Source: Nitrosopumilus sp.
GTDB taxonomy: Archaea; Thermoproteota; Nitrososphaeria; Nitrososphaerales; Nitrosopumilaceae
Direction of reading: 5' to 3'
Length of the DNA: 64,000 nucleotides
Assembly (NCBI RefSeq): GCF_025699255.1
Contig: NZ_JAILWA010000002.1
Span: 1-64,000 of the forward strand
The notes below the pieces were generated by a model. That model was not told the DNA's origin. It searched no databases and saw only the letters and a program-made list of their open reading frames with translations. The position numbers were made by a program, and so were the translations under genes. Below, in pieces: positions 43,415 through 54,533 of the stretch; position 1 is the first letter of the stretch; each line of letters starts with the position of its first letter.

Positions 43415-44182
43415 ATGAATTTCGATATATTCATTCCTGTACGATTAGATAGTAGTAGATTACCTAAAAAAGCACTTTTACAAATATCAAAAATACCAAT
43501 TCTTAAAATCTTGGTTGATAGATTATCAAATGCAAAAAAAATTAGAAACATTGTGGTGTGTACAACAACTTTACCATCCGATGATGAACTAGTGAATTTT
43601 TTACAAAAAAATAATATCAAATATTTCAGAGGTTCTGAAAAAGATATCCTACAAAGATATCTTGATGCAGCAACAACATTCAATTCTGATTATATTGTTA
43701 ATGTAGATGGAGATGATATTTACACTGATCCTAAATCTATTGATGACATTGTTGAAGAATATATTAAAAATAAAACTGATTTTATTAAAATTTCATCCGT
43801 TCCATTGGGATTACAATCTTTTGGATTTCCTATACATATTTTAAAACAAATTTGTAAAAATAAAAATTCTGATGATACTGAAACTGGTTGGATCCGTTTT
43901 TTTACTGAATCAAATCTTATTTCAAAAGGCGAAGCTATACAAAATTTAGAAAACCAATTCCCAAACAATTTACGTCTATCATTGGATTATCCAGAAGATT
44001 TTGAAATAGCTAAAGAAATTTTTTCTAGTATTTCAAAAAATTTTGATTTAGAGGAACTTTCAATATTTCTAAATAATAATTCCAATATCTTAAAAGCAAT
44101 TAGAAATACTGAAGATAAATGGAAAAATCACTGGAAAACTAATTTATCTGATATTTCTACAAAAACAAATGAAATAAAATGA
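43415..44182 (+). CDS. SpsF/NeuA-like CMP-sugar cytidylyltransferase
   Basis: A 255-residue nucleotidyltransferase with the start IFIPVRLDSSRLPKKAL (CTP-binding Arg/Lys loop), NVDGDDIYTDP (about 95-105) holding the metal-binding Asp, and RLSLDYPEDFEIAKEI near residue 190. It activates a nonulosonic or similar acid with CTP for transfer. It is the second CMP-sugar synthetase domain of the window. The stop overlaps the ATG of the next gene (ATGA). Confidence 0.86.
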   Translation: MNFDIFIPVRLDSSRLPKKALLQISKIPILKILVDRLSNAKKIRNIVVCTTTLPSDDELVNFLQKNNIKYFRGSEKDILQRYLDAATTFNSDYIVNVDGDDIYTDPKSIDDIVEEYIKNKTDFIKISSVPLGLQSFGFPIHILKQICKNKNSDDTETGWIRFFTESNLISKGEAIQNLENQFPNNLRLSLDYPEDFEIAKEIFSSISKNFDLEELSIFLNNNSNILKAIRNTEDKWKNHWKTNLSDISTKTNEIK

Positions 44183-46159: not shown

Positions 46160-47191
46160 TTGAAATCTCTAAAAATTTCCAATTTTCATATTGGTACTAG
46201 CTTTCCAGTTTTTATAATTGCAGAAGCTGGAATTAATCATAATGGTTCTTTAACAATAGCTAAAAAAATGGTTGATGTTGCCAAAAAAGCTGGCGTATCT
46301 TGTATTAAATTTCAAACCCATATTGCAGATCAAGAAATGATTAAAACTAATATTCGACCAGGAAAAATTTCAAGAAAAACTCTATGGAATATAATCAAAA
46401 ATTGTGAATTATCTGAAACAGAAGAACTAAAACTTCAAAAATACTGTAAAAAAGAAAAAATTCTATTTTTATCTACCCCCTTTTCTATTGAGGCTGTTCA
46501 AAGACTTGAAAAACTTAGAATTCCTGCTTACAAAATAGGATCTGGGGAACTTACAAATTTACCTTTTCTTGAAACTGTAGCAAAAACTGGAAAACCAATA
46601 ATATTATCAACTGGAATGTCAACTATTTCAGAAATTCGATCTGCTGTAAAAATTTTTAAAAAATACAAAAATTTATTTGCATTACTCCAAACTACATCTA
46701 CATACCCTTCAGATTATTCCGAAATTAAATTGGGGATGATTGAAAAATTACAAGATATGTTTGATGTTCCTGTAGGTCTTTCAGATCATTCTATTGGAAT
46801 CTATACTGCTATAGCTAGTGTCGCAAAAGGAGCATCTATAATCGAAAAGCATTTTACTCTAGATAAAAAAATGTCTGGACCAGATCAAAAAATTTCTTTG
46901 GATCCGTCTGAACTAAATGAATTGGTAATTGGGTGCAACGCAGTAAAACAAGCACTAGGAGATTCGAAATTTATTTTAAAAAATGAAAAACCAATACGAA
47001 AATTTGCTGAAGCATCAATTGTTACTACAAAAACAATTGAAAAGGGAGAAAAATTTACTTTAGAGAATATAGGCACAAAAAGACCCGGAACAGGTGATTT
47101 ACACGCAAATAAATTCTATGAAATTATAGGTAAAAACGCTAAAAAATCTATTAAACCAAATAAACAATTAACTTGGAAAGATATAGTTTGA
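46160..47191 (+). CDS. NeuB-family nonulosonic acid synthase (canonical metal site)
   Basis: A 343-residue PEP-dependent synthase with AEAGINHNGS, STPFSIEAV, KIGSGE, GLSDHSIG, EKHFTLDKKMSGPDQ and a C-terminal SAF domain with KRPGTGD. All residues known to bind Mn and substrate in NeuB are in place, including the SDH His that is changed to Asn in the copy at 32302. The start is TTG 46160. It overlaps the NeuC-like gene directly downstream, suggesting a NeuC-NeuB pair: release of a ManNAc-like sugar and condensation with PEP to give a sialic- or legionaminic-type acid. Confidence 0.92.
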   Translation: MKSLKISNFHIGTSFPVFIIAEAGINHNGSLTIAKKMVDVAKKAGVSCIKFQTHIADQEMIKTNIRPGKISRKTLWNIIKNCELSETEELKLQKYCKKEKILFLSTPFSIEAVQRLEKLRIPAYKIGSGELTNLPFLETVAKTGKPIILSTGMSTISEIRSAVKIFKKYKNLFALLQTTSTYPSDYSEIKLGMIEKLQDMFDVPVGLSDHSIGIYTAIASVAKGASIIEKHFTLDKKMSGPDQKISLDPSELNELVIGCNAVKQALGDSKFILKNEKPIRKFAEASIVTTKTIEKGEKFTLENIGTKRPGTGDLHANKFYEIIGKNAKKSIKPNKQLTWKDIV

Positions 47192-48330
47192 AGAAAAAAA
47201 TTCTTATTGTTACTGAAAGGCGAGCAGATTATTCAAAATTTCGACCAATTTTAAAAAAAATAACCAAATCGTCCAAACTTGATTATTGTCTTGTTGTCAC
47301 AGGCAGTCATCTTTTGTCAAGTCATGGAAAAACAATTAATGAAATAAAAAATGATGGTTTCAAAATTTCTTATAAATTTTCAATGTATCCAAAATATTTT
47401 ACAGGAACTAATTCGGAAATGGTTGAAAGTTTTGGTCGAGCAATTTTAAAAATAACTGAAATAGTGAAAATAGAAAAACCTAATTTAATTTTAGCTGGTT
47501 TTGATATAGGTGCAAATTTTGCGGCAGCTATTGTTGGTTCACATATGAATATTCATGTTGCACACATTGAAGGTGGTGATATTACTGGTACTATCGATGA
47601 ATCAATAAGACATGCAACATCAAAATTTTCACATATTCATTTTACATCAAATAAAATTGCCTCAACTAGATTACAAAAAATGGGAGAAAATAAGAAATTC
47701 ATTTTTACTGTTGGAAGTACAGGATTAGACAATATTCTTCGAACACAAAAACTAACAATTGAGAATTTGTCTCAAGAATTCAAAATTGATTTTTCTTCTC
47801 CATTTATAGTAGTTTTACAACACACAGTTACTACAGAAGTTAATAATGTCGATAAAAATTTCTTGAAAACATTAAAAGCAATTTCTGAATTAAAAATTCA
47901 AGCGTTACTTATACATGGAAATGCTGATGCTGGTTCTCAAAAACTTTCTAAATTAATACAAAATTCTTCAATTCAACATATCAAAACAATTCAAAATAAC
48001 AAATATGTTAATCTCTTATTTCATGCATCTGCATTAGTTGGAAATTCAAGTAGTGGAATTATTGAAACACCTTTCTTAAAAATTCCTTCAGTAAATATTG
48101 GTACTCGTCAACAAGGAAGATTAAAGTCATTTAGTGTGATTGATGTAAACTATAACAAAAATGAAATAAAAAAAGCCATCAAAAAGGCTGTTTTTGACAA
48201 AAATTTTAAAAATAAAGTAAAAAAATCTACTAGTCTTTATGGAGATGGTAATAGTGCATCAAAAATTGTCAAAATATTGGAAACACTCGATCTATCTAAA
48301 ATACCTATTCAGAAGACATTATCATATTGA
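47188..48330 (+). CDS. neuC: Hydrolysing UDP-sugar 2-epimerase (NeuC/LegG-like)
   Basis: Converts a UDP-GlcNAc-type sugar to free ManNAc-type sugar plus UDP. The 380-residue protein starts KKKILIVTERRADYSKFRP, has HIEGGDITGTIDESIRHATSKFSH (about 125-148) and a GNSSSGIIETP donor site near residue 290, all as in NeuC. I chose TTG 47188, which overlaps the TGA stop of the NeuB gene (TTGA), rather than the ATG 47173 inside it. With the NeuB gene, the Met-type dehydratase and an aminotransferase it could make legionaminic acid; alone with NeuB it would give sialic acid. Confidence 0.9.
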   Translation: MKKKILIVTERRADYSKFRPILKKITKSSKLDYCLVVTGSHLLSSHGKTINEIKNDGFKISYKFSMYPKYFTGTNSEMVESFGRAILKITEIVKIEKPNLILAGFDIGANFAAAIVGSHMNIHVAHIEGGDITGTIDESIRHATSKFSHIHFTSNKIASTRLQKMGENKKFIFTVGSTGLDNILRTQKLTIENLSQEFKIDFSSPFIVVLQHTVTTEVNNVDKNFLKTLKAISELKIQALLIHGNADAGSQKLSKLIQNSSIQHIKTIQNNKYVNLLFHASALVGNSSSGIIETPFLKIPSVNIGTRQQGRLKSFSVIDVNYNKNEIKKAIKKAVFDKNFKNKVKKSTSLYGDGNSASKIVKILETLDLSKIPIQKTLSY

Positions 48331-48338
48331 GATAAAAA

Positions 48339-49655
48339 ATGAAGCCAAACATAATTTTAATTTTAATTGATTCAATGCGGGCAGACAAATGCTTTAACAA
48401 CAAAAATATCCAAACACCAAATATTGATTTATTAATAAAAAAAGGGATTTATTTTAAAAATGGATTTAGCTCTTCTGATTACACAATTACTGGATATGGA
48501 AGTATCTTTACTGGAAAATACCCAATAAATGCTGGTAAAGATGGAATGAGTTATCATAAAATTTTTTCAGATTCCTCAAATTTCATTACAATTTTACAGA
48601 ATAATGGATATCATACTTTTGCAACAATGGATTCAGGTTTAACTGAAATTGGATTTGATGTAAACTTTGAAAATGAAGATAAAGGCTATGACCGTACTTC
48701 CACTAATCTTCATGAAGGCTTGGATAAACAAATTTTAGACAAGATCAAGTCATTTTCAGAACCATGGTTTTATTTAATCCATTTAGATGATTTACATATT
48801 CCAATTAGAGTTCCTAAAGAATACACTGACAAAAATTATTCTGAACGTTATGATGTGATTGTAGAAAAGATTGATTCTTTTTTAGGAAAATTGATTGAAA
48901 CTCTTGATTTAAAAAACACATTGATAATTTTAACATCTGATCATGGTGATTATTTATTATCTGAAGATTTACCTAAACACGAATCTTCTTTAAAATCTAA
49001 ACTTCGATCAAAATTACCTAATTCAACTTACAATTATCTTTCTTCAATAAAACGCGGGACAAAACATAAAATCAAAGAATTTCAAACACACGATCCTTTA
49101 GAAAAACGAACGCTTCAAACAAGAACTGCCAAAGAACGATATTTGTTTGATGATTTAATTCACGTTCCAATTTTATTTTCAGGATGTGGTGTTGATTCTA
49201 TTGGCCCTGTTGATGATCTTGTCAGAAGTGTAGATATTTTTCCTACTTTAATGGATTTATTGAAAATTCCAATCAATCTAAAGGAAATCGATGGGAAAAG
49301 TCTTGTACCAATTTTTAGTGGCAAATCAGTAGACATTTCCACAGTATATCTGGAAAATACTATTTTTGAAACCGATACAAAGAATCCTCAAGCAACTGTT
49401 GGAATTCGAACATTGAAATACAAATATTTTAGAAGTTTGGAAGATCCTTCTAAAAAAATCCACTTATTCAATTTAGAAGAGGATATTTTGGAAGAAAAAA
49501 ATATTGCATTAGAAAATTCAAACCTTGTAAGCAAAATGGAATCTGACCTTATGGATTTACGTAACAAACTGCAAAAACGCTTTGAAAAACCATCCATGAG
49601 TGTTGAAGAAACAAAAAAGGTTGAAGATGAACTTAAAAAATTGGGATACGTATAA
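48339..49655 (+). CDS. Alkaline-phosphatase/sulfatase-superfamily enzyme with Thr nucleophile
   Basis: A 438-residue PF00884-type protein. Metal-binding DSMRAD begins at residue 11 and the second site LTSDHGDYLL lies near residue 200. The nucleophile position, Cys or Ser in sulfatases (C/S-x-P-x-R), reads T49-I-T-G-Y upstream of TG at 58-59, so there is no formylglycine site. Thr is used by phosphoglycerol and phosphoethanolamine transferases of this superfamily. It has no N-terminal membrane helix or signal peptide and should be cytoplasmic. It is likely a phospho- or phosphono-transferase or hydrolase in the neighbouring phosphonate module. Confidence 0.8.
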   Translation: MKPNIILILIDSMRADKCFNNKNIQTPNIDLLIKKGIYFKNGFSSSDYTITGYGSIFTGKYPINAGKDGMSYHKIFSDSSNFITILQNNGYHTFATMDSGLTEIGFDVNFENEDKGYDRTSTNLHEGLDKQILDKIKSFSEPWFYLIHLDDLHIPIRVPKEYTDKNYSERYDVIVEKIDSFLGKLIETLDLKNTLIILTSDHGDYLLSEDLPKHESSLKSKLRSKLPNSTYNYLSSIKRGTKHKIKEFQTHDPLEKRTLQTRTAKERYLFDDLIHVPILFSGCGVDSIGPVDDLVRSVDIFPTLMDLLKIPINLKEIDGKSLVPIFSGKSVDISTVYLENTIFETDTKNPQATVGIRTLKYKYFRSLEDPSKKIHLFNLEEDILEEKNIALENSNLVSKMESDLMDLRNKLQKRFEKPSMSVEETKKVEDELKKLGYV

Positions 49656-49717
49656 CATCTACATATTTTATAAAATAATAAAATAATTTTATTAGCTTGG
49701 AGTTTTCTGTTCATAAT

Positions 49718-50842
49718 ATGAAAAGAAATCTTATAATTTTGATGATTGATGGAGGACGATTAGATTATTCGTTAAAATCACCTACTTTTATATCTATTAA
49801 AAAAAATTCAATTTGCCTTTCTCAACCAATCACATATGGTCCACATACAATTGCTGCAATGCATGCGGTTTTCAGTGGTTCTTATGGGACTAGAACAGGT
49901 ACAAACAGCTATTGGTCAACTTATAATTTTAAAAAAAATAAATTCAAAACAATTTCTGAATATCTACATGATGAGAATTATTATACAAAAGCTGATGTTG
50001 TAAACGATTTAGTTATTCCAAAACAAGGGTTGGATGAATTTTTAATTCATGATGAATTAAATGATAATCTTACATTAAGACATCAAAAATTTCTTCAAGA
50101 AATGAAAATAAAAAATGATATTGGACAAAATTTCTTTCTTTATTTACAGTATAGTAATATTCATACTGGAATTATGAATGAAGTTTTAAAAGTTTACAAT
50201 AATTTTAGTGAAGATTATTTTAACAGTAAAGAAAAAAACAAAGAAAGATATCAATCTCTTTTTGAAAGTGCAGAAAAATATCTAACAGAAATTTTAAAAA
50301 CCATTGATGATTTAGAACTCTCAAAAAATTCTATGATACTAATTATGTCCGATCATGGGATTAGTATTGGCGAAAAAATTGGTGAAAGAGCATATGGAGC
50401 TTTTTGTTATGATTATACATTGAGAACATTTGCATATTTTCTGACGCCTGATTTGCCAAATTTAGAAATTAGTCAACAAGTGAGAACTATTGATTTCATG
50501 CCTACCATTCTAGATTACTTTGGAATTTCTTTAGATCTAAATTATGAAAAAATTGATGGCGAATCACTTTTGCCATTATTTGGAGGAAAATCCCTTCCAG
50601 AAAAAATTGCTTTTTCTGAAACAGGAAATCCACTTCAAGATACAAAACCTCCTAAAGAACCAAATATAAAATCTGTAAGAACTTCAGAGTGGAAATTAAT
50701 ATTTAATGAATATAATGAAACCAGAGAATTATATGATTTGGTTCATGATCCACATGAAACAAACAATCTTTCAGGAAATAACTTAGAAATTGAAACCGTT
50801 TTATTTGAAAAACTTCAAATTTTAAGTGATGGAAAAATTTAA
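49718..50842 (+). CDS. Second alkaline-phosphatase/sulfatase-superfamily enzyme with Thr nucleophile
   Basis: A 374-residue paralogue of the gene before it. Metal-binding MIDGGRLD is at 9-16, the nucleophile segment T44-IAAMHAVFSG again has Thr in place of Cys/Ser, and SDHGISIGEK near residue 215 supplies the second metal site. The C terminus has ELYDLVHDPHETNNLS, a segment shared with many sulfatase-fold proteins. ATG 49718 is preferred over the in-frame TTG 49697. It converges on the nucleotidyltransferase gene with a four-base stop overlap. Confidence 0.8.
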   Translation: MKRNLIILMIDGGRLDYSLKSPTFISIKKNSICLSQPITYGPHTIAAMHAVFSGSYGTRTGTNSYWSTYNFKKNKFKTISEYLHDENYYTKADVVNDLVIPKQGLDEFLIHDELNDNLTLRHQKFLQEMKIKNDIGQNFFLYLQYSNIHTGIMNEVLKVYNNFSEDYFNSKEKNKERYQSLFESAEKYLTEILKTIDDLELSKNSMILIMSDHGISIGEKIGERAYGAFCYDYTLRTFAYFLTPDLPNLEISQQVRTIDFMPTILDYFGISLDLNYEKIDGESLLPLFGGKSLPEKIAFSETGNPLQDTKPPKEPNIKSVRTSEWKLIFNEYNETRELYDLVHDPHETNNLSGNNLEIETVLFEKLQILSDGKI

Positions 50843-51585
50843 CTAAATAACTTTCTAGCTTTTTCTAAATCTTGAGGAGTATCAATTTCACACCAATTTC
50901 CTTCTATGAAAATTGGCTTAACATCAATGTTCAAATCAATTAATTCTTGAAGCATGTCTGTAAGATATGCTTTCTTGAATGATGGTGCATTATGAAATTT
51001 TCCTACATGATTTTTTTGAATTTTCATAAATGTATCTACAAATAACTTTGAACCTTTTTCTGAAAGAATCATTGGACCTAAAAATTCTCCAATTACATCT
51101 TCATCATTTGTTTTTTCTATATTTTTTTTAATTTTAATGATTTTATCATTTCTTATTAACACATTATCAGCTTCAGATTTAGGATGTTGAGTTCTACCTT
51201 CATAGGATTTTTCCCAATTAAGATCTATTGGAATTCCTATATCTCCAGAAAAACTTAGTATCTCTTTTAATATTGATTCTTCAAACAGAATGTCTGAATA
51301 TGATGTTAAAATCTTACCCTCAATTTTGTCCTTTGCAGCCATTAAGCTACCCAAAACATCATGTTCTGCATAATTATCATCATTAAGATATAAGATATTT
51401 TCAATTCCAAAATTTTTGTGTGGTCCTGTAATTATGATAATTTCATTAATTTGATTTTTTTTAAATAGTGAAATTTGTCTCTCTAAAATTGTTTTTCCGT
51501 TAATATCTAACAATCCCTTTGGAGTTGTTTTAGTAATATCTCCTAATCTACTTGCATAACCGGCTGCAATAATAATTACTCTCAT
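50839..51585 (-). CDS. LicC-like nucleotidyltransferase (candidate phosphonate cytidylyltransferase)
   Basis: A 248-residue NTP-transferase with IIIAAGYASRLGDIT and TPKGLLDINGKTILERQI near the N terminus (nucleotide and substrate loops), TSYSDILFEE with the metal-binding Asp (about 91-100), and CEIDTPQDLEKA at the C terminus. The family includes LicC and the phosphonate cytidylyltransferase PntC. Located as the last gene of the pepM operon, it probably makes a CMP-activated phosphonate such as CMP-2-hydroxyethylphosphonate. A sugar-1-phosphate substrate is the main alternative. Confidence 0.83.
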   Translation of the reverse strand: MRVIIIAAGYASRLGDITKTTPKGLLDINGKTILERQISLFKKNQINEIIIITGPHKNFGIENILYLNDDNYAEHDVLGSLMAAKDKIEGKILTSYSDILFEESILKEILSFSGDIGIPIDLNWEKSYEGRTQHPKSEADNVLIRNDKIIKIKKNIEKTNDEDVIGEFLGPMILSEKGSKLFVDTFMKIQKNHVGKFHNAPSFKKAYLTDMLQELIDLNIDVKPIFIEGNWCEIDTPQDLEKARKLFS

Positions 51586-51591
51586 TTTATT

Positions 51592-52140
51592 CTAAATTGC
51601 TTTCATGAACCTTTTTTTAATTTCTGTTGGTTTGTACATTACTCTAGAACTAACAATTTTACTTGGTTGAATTTTAATCAAAATCATTATTGGCGATTTG
51701 ATTTTTAATTTTTTATTTAATATTTCAATTAATTTTTCTTTTGAACTTGTTTTATATACTGTATATCCACAAGCTTTAGCGATTTTTTCAATTTTTATTG
51801 TTGATGTGTGTGTGGGTTGTCCTCCAGTTGATTCATGTATTGAATTGTCAAAAATTACATGGATTAAATTTTTTGGAGACATTTTTCCAATGGTGGTTAA
51901 TGAACCTAAATTCATTAAGATATTACCATCTCCATCAAATACGTAGATCTTTTTTTTAGATCTTGTCAAAGCAATTCCTAAACCAATTGATGATGCAAGC
52001 CCCATTGAACCTATCATATAGAAATTAGATTTCTTTTCACATGTATCATATAGATCTCTGCTAATGAATCCATTTGCAGAAACAATTGGATTGTTTTTAC
52101 AAAACTTTCCAATGATTTCAATTGCTTCTTTTCTAATCAT
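51592..52140 (-). CDS. Phosphonopyruvate decarboxylase, thiamine-diphosphate-binding subunit
   Basis: The 182-residue C-terminal half of a ThDP decarboxylase, encoded as a separate gene. The cofactor motif reads FDGDGNILMNLGSL with a downstream Asn in FDNSIHESTGGQPTHT. It starts 8 bp before the stop of the preceding subunit gene, so the two are co-translated. The nearest alternative is the sulfopyruvate decarboxylase ComE of coenzyme M synthesis, but the direct neighbour of PEP mutase argues for phosphonopyruvate. Confidence 0.88.
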   Translation of the reverse strand: MIRKEAIEIIGKFCKNNPIVSANGFISRDLYDTCEKKSNFYMIGSMGLASSIGLGIALTRSKKKIYVFDGDGNILMNLGSLTTIGKMSPKNLIHVIFDNSIHESTGGQPTHTSTIKIEKIAKACGYTVYKTSSKEKLIEILNKKLKIKSPIMILIKIQPSKIVSSRVMYKPTEIKKRFMKAI

Positions 52141-52621
52141 GAAATTCCCTTTTAATTATTAAGACACATGGATTTTCAGATTTTATTTGTGATTTTGCCC
52201 ATTTGCATGATTCTTTCCAATTTGACTCAGTAAGAATTCTTGATTTCAATTTTAAACTTTTAATCAATTCTGGCTGAATTTTTCCTAGTTTTGTATGCTC
52301 TGGGGCATCGGTTGGAAGGTAGCCTCTCCATCCGATAAGAAAAATTATTGGAATCTTATACAATTGTACTAGTGAAGTTATAGTACTTATTGAATTTCCA
52401 AAACCTGCATTTTGCATAAAAACTAGCGATTGGCTCTTAACTAAAGACATACCTGTGGCAATTCCTATAGCCTCTTCTTCTCTAGTTGTTATAATTATCT
52501 CATTTTTTTCAAGTCCTTGGTTGATAAAATGTTTCATAGTAGAATCTGGGACTCCTACAAAATTCTTTATTCCAATTTTCTTCAAAAATTTAAACATTGA
52601 TCTTTGTGATTTTTCATTCAT
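52133..52621 (-). CDS. Phosphonopyruvate decarboxylase, PYR-domain subunit
   Basis: The 162-residue N-terminal half of a ThDP decarboxylase. It has FVGVPDSTMKHFI, the conserved Glu that activates thiamine in TTREEEAIGIATGMS (about 45-59), and MQNAGFGNSIST. The ATG overlaps the TGA of pepM (ATGA) and its 3' end overlaps the partner subunit gene. Together the two subunits should remove CO2 from phosphonopyruvate to give phosphonoacetaldehyde, which pulls the unfavourable PEP mutase equilibrium forward. Confidence 0.88.
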   Translation of the reverse strand: MNEKSQRSMFKFLKKIGIKNFVGVPDSTMKHFINQGLEKNEIIITTREEEAIGIATGMSLVKSQSLVFMQNAGFGNSISTITSLVQLYKIPIIFLIGWRGYLPTDAPEHTKLGKIQPELIKSLKLKSRILTESNWKESCKWAKSQIKSENPCVLIIKREFHD

Positions 52622-53526
52622 TTTACATATCCAAGTTTTTTAAGATTTTCTTCAATTTCTTTTTCCTGTTTTTTAATATTGTACATTTCTTGCAACTGAA
52701 AAATCTCTTCCATAGATGACATTTCTTGTTCCACTTTGGATAAGCTATTTGTTTTCGAAATATCTTCCAAAAGTTTTGACATCGCTAAATATGAAACACG
52801 AAGAGTATGATTTGCATATATTACCATTTTGAAATTATTTGAAATCAATTCATCAGTTGTTACATTAGGATATGATGTTGGGATTGAAATTAAGGGAATA
52901 TTTCCTTCCCATTTTTTACTAAACTCAAAAATTTCTTGTGGTGTGTTCTTTTTTGAATGAATGAGAATAGCATCAGCACCAGCTTTTTCATATGCAGTTG
53001 CACGTTTTATTGCTTCATCTATTCCTAAACCTGCAATTAAAGCCTCTACTCTAGCAATAATCATAAAATCATTCGAAATTTTTGCATCCTTTCCTGCAAT
53101 GATTTTTGCAACAAAATCCTTTTCCGGTAAAAGTTCTTGAGTTCCATCTTCTAATAAGCTATTTTGTTTTGGAAATACTTTATCTTCGATGCTAACAGCT
53201 GCAATTCCTGCTTTTTCATATTTTTTTACCATGTGACCAACATTACTAGGTCCACCAAAACCCGTATCACAATCTGCAATAATGGGAATATTACATGATT
53301 CAGCCATATTGGATGCAGCATGTAAAAATTCTGTCATCGTTAGAATGCTTGCATCAGGAAGTGCATGAGTGGCGGAAATGGCAAAGCTTCCAGCCCAAAC
53401 TGCATCAAAACCATGAATTTCTACTAGTTTGGCAGACATGGCGTCAAATGCGCCTCCTACTTTAACAATGGATTGTTCTGCTAATTTTTTTCTTAAACTA
53501 TTAGAACTAGAATTCATTTTAGTCAC
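52618..53526 (-). CDS. pepM: Phosphoenolpyruvate phosphomutase
   Basis: Converts PEP to phosphonopyruvate, the step that creates the C-P bond in almost all natural phosphonates. The 302-residue protein shows the isocitrate-lyase-type barrel with DCDTGFGG (85-92), and the diagnostic mutase motif EDKVFPKQNS at 114-123, which separates it from methylisocitrate lyases (these have a Cys-containing KKCGH motif). The start is GTG 53526, or ATG 53517 three codons later. An AT-rich element shared with the divergent alcohol dehydrogenase gene lies upstream. Confidence 0.95.
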   Translation of the reverse strand: MTKMNSSSNSLRKKLAEQSIVKVGGAFDAMSAKLVEIHGFDAVWAGSFAISATHALPDASILTMTEFLHAASNMAESCNIPIIADCDTGFGGPSNVGHMVKKYEKAGIAAVSIEDKVFPKQNSLLEDGTQELLPEKDFVAKIIAGKDAKISNDFMIIARVEALIAGLGIDEAIKRATAYEKAGADAILIHSKKNTPQEIFEFSKKWEGNIPLISIPTSYPNVTTDELISNNFKMVIYANHTLRVSYLAMSKLLEDISKTNSLSKVEQEMSSMEEIFQLQEMYNIKKQEKEIEENLKKLGYVK

Positions 53527-53544
53527 AATGAAACTAGTTTTTTA

Positions 53545-53555
53545 GCTTATAATAA
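53545..53555. promoter_or_regulatory. Shared AT-rich element between pepM and the alcohol dehydrogenase gene
   Basis: The 47-bp divergent intergenic region contains one TTATAATAAT-type stretch. Its centre lies about 24 bp upstream of the pepM start and about 24-28 bp upstream of the dehydrogenase ATG. Both promoters would overlap, so the two genes are likely expressed together. Confidence 0.4.
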
Positions 53556-53573
53556 TAGATTGTTAAAAAAATT

Positions 53574-54533
53574 ATGATAATGTTTACTATTAAACAGCCT
53601 CCAAAGATTATTTTTGGCAAAAACTCTGTAAGAAATTTCTCTTTTCCTTTAGATAGTTTGGTTATTACCAGTAAAGGTGCTAAATCCCGAGGATGGCTAG
53701 AATATTTAGCATTAAATGATTTTTTACTTTTTGAAGATGTTGAACCTAATCCATCAATTGAGACCACTGAAAAAATTATTTCAAAATTTAGAAATGACTC
53801 TTTTTCTACAATAATTGGTGTTGGTGGAGGAAGCACTTTAGATGTAGCAAAATTTGTTGCCGCAAAATTAAACAAATCTAAAATTTTAATTCCAACAACA
53901 TTTGGAAGTGGTAGTGAAGTTACTAGAATTTCAGTTTTAAAGGTAAATGGAAAAAAACAAAGCTTTCATGATGATAAACTATTTGCTGATATTTCAATCG
54001 TTGATAGTAATTTCATTACCAATACACCTTTGAATATTATAAAAAATTCAGCAATTGATGCTTGTGCACAATGTACAGAAGCTTATGATAGTAAAATTGC
54101 AAATCAATACACAAAATTTCTTTGTGAACATGCTTTCAATTGTTTAGAAAGTGCAATTCTTTCTGAAAATTTTGAACTTTTACCATATGGTTCTCTAATT
54201 ACGGGGTTAGGCTTTGGAAATAGTTCTACTACATTAGGACATGCATTATCATATGTTTATTCTAATGAAGGGTATTCTCATGGGCATGCTTTATCTTATA
54301 CAACTTCAGTTGCCCACAAATTCAACAATTCAAAATTTTATGATCGCTTTAAAACTATTGTAAAAAAATTAAATTTTGAACCTATACATCTTGATGAAAA
54401 TTATGATATTGCATCAGAATTAATTTTAAAGGATAAAAAACATTTAGATAATAATCCTAAATTTATTTCAAAAGATAAGATAATTGAGTTATTACATCTA
54501 CTAAATTCAAAACAATTCTATGACACTTTTTAA
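53574..54533 (+). CDS. Iron-type alcohol dehydrogenase (probable phosphonoacetaldehyde reductase)
   Basis: A 319-residue group III alcohol dehydrogenase, shorter than the usual 370-390. GVGGGSTLDVAKFVAAKL (about 82-99) binds NAD(P), and the metal ligands are recognisable in SAIDACAQCTEAY, TTLGHALSY and SHGHALSYTT. In phosphonate pathways such enzymes reduce phosphonoacetaldehyde to 2-hydroxyethylphosphonate. Its position divergent from pepM, with a shared promoter, supports that. The missing length is mainly in the C-terminal helical domain. Confidence 0.86.
   Translation: MIMFTIKQPPKIIFGKNSVRNFSFPLDSLVITSKGAKSRGWLEYLALNDFLLFEDVEPNPSIETTEKIISKFRNDSFSTIIGVGGGSTLDVAKFVAAKLNKSKILIPTTFGSGSEVTRISVLKVNGKKQSFHDDKLFADISIVDSNFITNTPLNIIKNSAIDACAQCTEAYDSKIANQYTKFLCEHAFNCLESAILSENFELLPYGSLITGLGFGNSSTTLGHALSYVYSNEGYSHGHALSYTTSVAHKFNNSKFYDRFKTIVKKLNFEPIHLDENYDIASELILKDKKHLDNNPKFISKDKIIELLHLLNSKQFYDTF

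Follow-up and report, generated by a model that had tools for sequence, protein, structure and literature searches.

Gene content of the locus

The DNA analyzed here is a 64,000-nucleotide stretch (the window) on contig C2 of a Nitrosopumilus sp. genome (G000), a 1.65-Mb assembly in 20 contigs that is 99.5% complete. We examined a cassette of five genes at positions 50839-54533, predicted to lead from phosphoenolpyruvate (PEP) to an activated form of 2-hydroxyethylphosphonate (HEP), and two genes beside it, S5 and S6. An earlier note, made from the sequence of the window, had described a complete PEP-to-HEP gene set within a nonulosonate glycan island, without a visible methylphosphonate synthase (MpnS). 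All five genes were found at this site, and the same gene order recurred in about 20 other genomes, which excludes chance. The features are listed below with their coordinates and strands.

48339-49655, plus strand: S5, the other sulfatase-fold protein, also with Thr in the nucleophile position (PF00884, 124.7 bits; in the alignment, T50 falls on the active-site Cys of the true sulfatase 6hr5)
49656-49717, no strand: S5-S6 interval, site of mpnS in N. maritimus, empty here (gene-order comparison; tblastn without an MpnS remnant)
49697-50842, plus strand: S6, sulfatase-fold protein with Thr as nucleophile, candidate phosphonyl transferase (invariant Thr in GPHTIAAMHA; no CxPxR; co-occurs with PepM); the conserved start is probably the ATG at 49718
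50839-51585, minus strand: nucleotidyltransferase (NTase), LicC/PntC-like, probable CTP:HEP cytidylyltransferase (best folds LicC 1jyk and PntC 6pd2; in all 22 genomes with PepM)
51592-52140, minus strand: phosphonopyruvate decarboxylase (Ppd), C-terminal (beta) half (TPP_enzyme_C; TIGR03297 195.5 bits, sulfopyruvate decarboxylase beta 177.9)
52133-52621, minus strand: Ppd, N-terminal (alpha) half (TPP_enzyme_N; TIGR03297 105.9 bits, sulfopyruvate decarboxylase alpha 101.5)
52618-53526, minus strand: PepM, PEP mutase (EDKVFPKQNS motif; PF13714 190.6 bits; PDB 5unc, E=2.6e-77)
53574-54533, plus strand: iron alcohol dehydrogenase (Fe-ADH), probable phosphonoacetaldehyde reductase (PF00465; TIGR03405 match under the cut-off; divergent from pepM; kept in the cassette)

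The enzymes named in the earlier note all held up. The motif in 52618-53526 satisfied the EDKX5NS pattern of PEP mutases, and PepM 5unc was the nearest solved structure. TIGR03297 was the top family for both Ppd halves, with scores below its full-length cut-off. The pepM and Fe-ADH genes lay on opposite strands with a 47-bp gap between them, and NTase and S6 were convergent, with ends overlapping by 4 bp. The sole other PF13714 protein of the genome (contig C2, 172.6 kb) was rejected as a PepM; EDQKWPKRCG replaces the motif, identity is 28%, and by its sequence it is an isocitrate-lyase/methylisocitrate-lyase-type paralogue.

Search for a methylphosphonate synthase

The comparison set consisted of 250 genomes of the family (G numbers), and the loci taken from genomes carry L numbers. 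Genome G088, which we take to be N. maritimus SCM1, codes for the MpnS of PDB 6b9s, identical letter for letter. With this protein as the query, matches were found in 12 of the 250 genomes, with full-length identities as low as 55%, and no MpnS or HEPD relative was found in G000. A profile built from nine MpnS proteins, for which the single-protein search with its 12 matching relatives served as the positive control, likewise had no match in G000 at E<=10. The genome-wide search for MpnS/HEPD-family proteins that the earlier note had called for was thus run with both a protein and a profile, and the absence seen in the window was confirmed.

Gene order was in agreement. The methylphosphonate (MPn) cluster of N. 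maritimus SCM1 has the same order as the window (S5, S6, NTase, PpdB, PpdA, PepM and a divergent ADH), with nonulosonate genes nearby; it differs in having mpnS between S5 and S6, and the two NTases fall into different clades. The same slot holds mpnS in loci L033 and L037. In the window, S5 and S6 were adjacent, about 60 bp apart and sequenced through, and tblastn detected no MpnS remnant (best E=0.22). The mpnS slot is cleanly empty and is not an assembly-gap artefact.

Other tailoring routes were also sought in the window genome. No KedN5/Fom3-like radical SAM methylase was found for the window cassette, unlike in related clusters. A 2-aminoethylphosphonate route through PhnW was rejected, the only candidate in the genome, a generic aminotransferase of class V, scoring 134 bits versus a cut-off of 400.8. 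The lack of MpnS, of a radical SAM methylase of the related-cluster kind and of PhnW above the cut-off supports HEP as the end product.

Spread of the cassette among relatives

Close, or true, PepM was present in 22 of the 250 genomes, and 11 of these 22, near-complete genomes included, had no detectable MpnS. At least one absence, that in G132, is probably false, as its contig ends inside the NTase gene; the NTase of G132 belongs to the MPn clade. The plain MpnS-lacking cassette was found in the window and in G119, G161, G079 and G073. Several other MpnS-lacking clusters carried additional tailoring genes, namely those for a KedN5-type B12 radical SAM protein, a Nudix protein and another NTase; elsewhere an NTase stood beside a TauD-type dioxygenase.

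PepM- or NTase-linked B12 radical SAM proteins of the KedN5 family, accompanied by an additional NTase and by a Nudix protein, were seen at L042, L047, L050, L051, L052, L072 and L076; by analogy with Fom3 these proteins would perhaps methylate CMP-HEP. Locus L054 (G141) was a decaying phosphonate cluster, with PepM broken by stops, a 50-residue piece of MpnS left and the Ppd genes not found; S6 and NTase were intact. Cassettes 90-100% identical to archaeal ones occurred at L082 and L084, in records named Patescibacteria metagenome-assembled genome CRAIB_MAG54, and these are probably archaeal contigs wrongly binned.

Identity of the nucleotidyltransferase

The AlphaFold2 model of the window NTase had a pLDDT of 94.6, and the first ranks in Foldseek were LicC (CTP:phosphocholine) and PntC (CTP:2-aminoethylphosphonate). 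Both were also among the three best matches in a profile search, so that the enzyme shares the PntC/LicC fold, with conserved NTP-binding motifs, and these two are its nearest solved relatives in fold and sequence (1jyk for LicC, 6pd1/6pd2 for PntC). It differs from them in several respects: identity is 22-25%, there is no fused aminotransferase, and the genome has no PhnW above the cut-off. Glu104 of PntC, the acidic residue that faces the substrate amine (PMC6697681), aligns with Tyr96 of the window NTase and with Tyr or Phe in other PepM-linked members. The window enzyme therefore lacks the amine-facing acid of PntC proper, and Tyr96 fits what would be expected if the side chain of the substrate is uncharged, as in HEP or MPn.

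NTase was present in all 22 PepM genomes and in only 2 others (p=1.4e-29). Activation of HEP with CTP has a precedent in the cytidylyltransferase domain of Fom1 in fosfomycin biosynthesis (PMC6697681); that domain belongs to PF01467, as opposed to PF12804 for the window NTase, and no Fom3-like partner was found here. From this pattern of relatives and occurrence, the NTase is probably a CTP:HEP cytidylyltransferase.

We next compared gene trees with MpnS status. On the PepM tree the MpnS label needed 8 changes, compared to 7.6 after shuffling; on this tree and on that of ADH, MpnS-bearing and MpnS-lacking cassettes were mixed much as by chance. In a common set of 15 loci (13 for S5), with label changes counted against 300 shuffles, PepM and ADH each needed 6 changes, each Ppd half 4, S5 5, S6 3 and NTase 2. 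The 2 changes of NTase compare to 5.3 expected, and none of the 300 shuffles was as low; the corresponding counts were 12 of 300 for S6 and 251 of 300 for S5. These change counts, which take in all loci of the set, were the primary test. In a larger NTase tree the plain MpnS-lacking cassettes formed one supported group, and most MpnS-bearing cassettes grouped together with weaker support (88/75), with the MpnS-bearing G085 and G057 outside. NTase positions 11, 24, 77 and 140 tell the two groups apart. Imposing the NTase groups on PepM or ADH was rejected (p-AU 2e-8 to 9e-4), and imposing them on S6 was not; these values are supportive only, the groups having been named after the NTase tree was seen. 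The segregation of the NTase tree with MpnS status, which the PepM and ADH trees do not show, supports the earlier proposal that the end product is activated with CTP. On the simplest reading, NTase would act after MpnS on the finished phosphonate (HEP here, MPn in N. maritimus) and would have been re-specialized along with the end product.

S5 and S6 as candidate transferases

The earlier note had overlooked S5 and S6. These adjacent genes (48339-50842) border the empty mpnS slot on its two sides and encode the strongest candidates of the locus for the transferase. Both have a sulfatase fold (PF00884; S1 sulfatases as the top Foldseek matches). In S6 an invariant Thr stands at the nucleophile position, where sulfatases need Cys or Ser, and the CxPxR signature is absent; two S5 homologues have Ser there. 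Neither window protein has the Cys or Ser in CxPxR that marks a formylglycine sulfatase. LicD was rejected as the transferase, since PF04991 had no match in the genome while controls scored.

Close S6 proteins occurred in 19 of the 22 PepM genomes compared to 3 of the 228 others (p=1.5e-22). More distant S6 proteins lay directly behind an NTase paralogue, a protein like gamma-glutamyl-CDP-amidate hydrolase (under the family cut-off) and a PRK05849 protein of 800 residues; this cassette is independent of PepM. From its length and context, we take PRK05849 to be the family of the Campylobacter glutamine kinase. S6 was present in all 9 genomes that have the PRK05849 protein. S6 is thus found together with CTP activation of two dissimilar phosphorus groups, the behavior expected of a transferase of the activated group, and is the best candidate for that role as judged from sequence and context.

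The PepM-independent, phosphoramidate-like cassette was seen at L060:5147-10183 (N. maritimus), L061-L066 and L068, in 9 of the 250 family genomes. In the O-methyl phosphoramidate pathway of Campylobacter, summarized in PMC6429109, a rare phosphorus group is likewise activated with CTP for a surface glycan, and the relatives share with it glutamine-kinase-like and gamma-glutamyl-CDP-amidate-hydrolase-like genes beside the NTase and S6 paralogues. The chemistry differs, being P-N instead of P-C, and this cassette is absent from the window genome. The analogy suggests that some ammonia-oxidizing archaea (AOA) may make P-N decorated glycans as Campylobacter does; in the literature searched, we found no paper joining phosphoramidate to Nitrosopumilus or Thaumarchaeota. 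Outside the AOA, an S6 homologue (42%) on a Diapherotrites archaeon contig (L093:8421-12510) stood beside a fusion of adenylyl-sulfate (APS) kinase and methyltransferase and a phosphodiesterase-family protein.

Glycan setting

The nonulosonate glycan island of the earlier note was borne out by three further genes.

43415-44182, plus strand: CMP-nonulosonate synthetase-like (CTP_transf_3) protein (PF02348, 73.4 bits)
46160-47191, plus strand: NeuB-type nonulosonate synthase (TIGR03569, 381.7 bits, just below its cut-off)
47173-48330, plus strand: NeuC-type UDP-GlcNAc 2-epimerase (TIGR03568, 374.3 bits, above the NCBIfam cut-off of 235.9)

Many other glycan genes surround the cassette. Along the island (window 18000-64000) the GC content declines, with values of about 31-36% giving way to about 24-31%.

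Discussion

Taken together, these data make it fairly probable that the cassette is a HEP-terminating variant of the phosphonate pathway of AOA, in which HEP would be activated with CTP and esterified to a surface glycan. PepM would convert PEP to phosphonopyruvate, the split Ppd would decarboxylate this to phosphonoacetaldehyde, and Fe-ADH would reduce the aldehyde to HEP, the predicted end product where MpnS is lacking. The NTase would then form CMP-HEP from HEP and CTP, and S6, perhaps with S5 and with its Thr as the nucleophile, would transfer the phosphonate onto a surface glycan, most likely one with nonulosonates.

Several points weigh against this proposal. The functions of these enzymes are predicted, and the glycan acceptor is argued from the gene neighborhood. 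Sulfopyruvate decarboxylase subunits score only slightly under TIGR03297 for both Ppd halves, and the assignment to phosphonopyruvate decarboxylase was made because of adjacency to PepM. The window ADH has Gln at a position usually held by a metal-binding His in this family; the same Gln is common to all its cassette homologues, which makes it a family trait and not local decay. At 22-25% identity to LicC and PntC, the substrate of the NTase is not fixed by homology. The genes for mpnS, S6 and NTase are neighbors, and block transfer could yield part of the tree signal; the lack of signal in S5, the neighbor of mpnS on the other side, speaks against this and does not settle the matter. Finally, a genome in 20 contigs leaves a little room for an overlooked gene.

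The alternatives differ in how much of this they would overturn. An mpnS gene missed in an assembly gap, with MPn made after all, is very improbable; the assembly has 20 contigs, and mpnS can be lost from view at a contig break, as G132 illustrates, but the genome is 99.5% complete, its usual slot is sequenced through and empty, neither protein nor profile gave a match, and the window NTase groups with those of other MpnS-lacking cassettes. A further possibility is that the NTase serves the glycan by activating a common sugar or polyol phosphate, with HEP either released or attached in some unrelated way. Among the structural neighbors of the NTase are indeed inositol-1-phosphate and sugar-1-phosphate enzymes of this kind, and glycan genes surround it; however, its presence in all PepM genomes and only 2 others, and a phylogeny that follows MpnS, make this quite unlikely. 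A route in which CMP-HEP is formed and HEP is then built into a phosphonolipid or some other small conjugate, and not into a glycan, is also unlikely. CMP-activated head groups serve lipid synthesis too, and no acceptor was identified here, yet glycan genes surround the cassette both here and in many relatives, and no lipid-type transferase gene was seen adjoining it.

The remaining two alternatives deserve more weight. The NTase tree could reflect block transfer of mpnS with its neighbors, with an NTase that takes HEP and MPn alike, as the genes are adjacent and neighboring S6 has a similar, weaker signal. We regard this as rather unlikely, given that S5 has no such signal and that NTase, which lies farther from mpnS than S6, has the strongest. 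S5 and S6 may instead trim the glycan as genuine sulfatases or phosphoester hydrolases, with another, unrecognized protein as the transferase. This is a substantial possibility, though a doubtful one: S1 sulfatases are the closest folds and profiles, and the Diapherotrites neighborhood also fits sulfate chemistry, but Thr replaces the Cys or Ser needed for formylglycine, CxPxR is absent, LicD is absent, and S6 goes with CTP-activation cassettes of two different phosphorus chemistries.

The proposed HEP-glycan ester would not be the new kind of polymer that the earlier note had envisaged. Polysaccharide esters of both MPn and HEP have been reported from marine dissolved organic matter (PMC9381506), so the product is already a known form in seawater; its producers are not named there. 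An MPn-modified exopolysaccharide has been inferred for N. maritimus (PMC9381506), and MPn genes have been described in several AOA (PMC7490402). Arylsulfatase genes near pepM have also been noticed in the literature and taken as a hint at phosphonate esters. As far as the literature searched shows, three things are new: a form of the cassette that cleanly terminates at HEP, the NTase lineage that belongs to it, and the association of S6 with two chemistries. A broader proposal, which we put forward tentatively and short of calling it probable, is that AOA have a portable module made up of NTase and S6. In it, NTase would use CTP to activate a rare phosphorus group, which S6, as a new class of phosphonyl transferase, would pass to surface glycans. 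The module would serve HEP, MPn, radical-SAM-modified phosphonates and phosphoramidate, with NTase re-specialized for each product, and MpnS-lacking AOA would be a source of the HEP esters of the ocean.

Methane is formed in oxygenated seawater from the MPn of microbes. Should as many as half of the PepM-bearing AOA end at HEP, pepM with ppd would be no proxy for methane potential, and HEP esters would have a named candidate source in the MpnS-lacking AOA. The position of an NTase in its tree can serve as a sequence marker of the phosphonate end product, and for the attachment of phosphonates to glycans in these archaea the S6 family supplies a concrete enzyme candidate.

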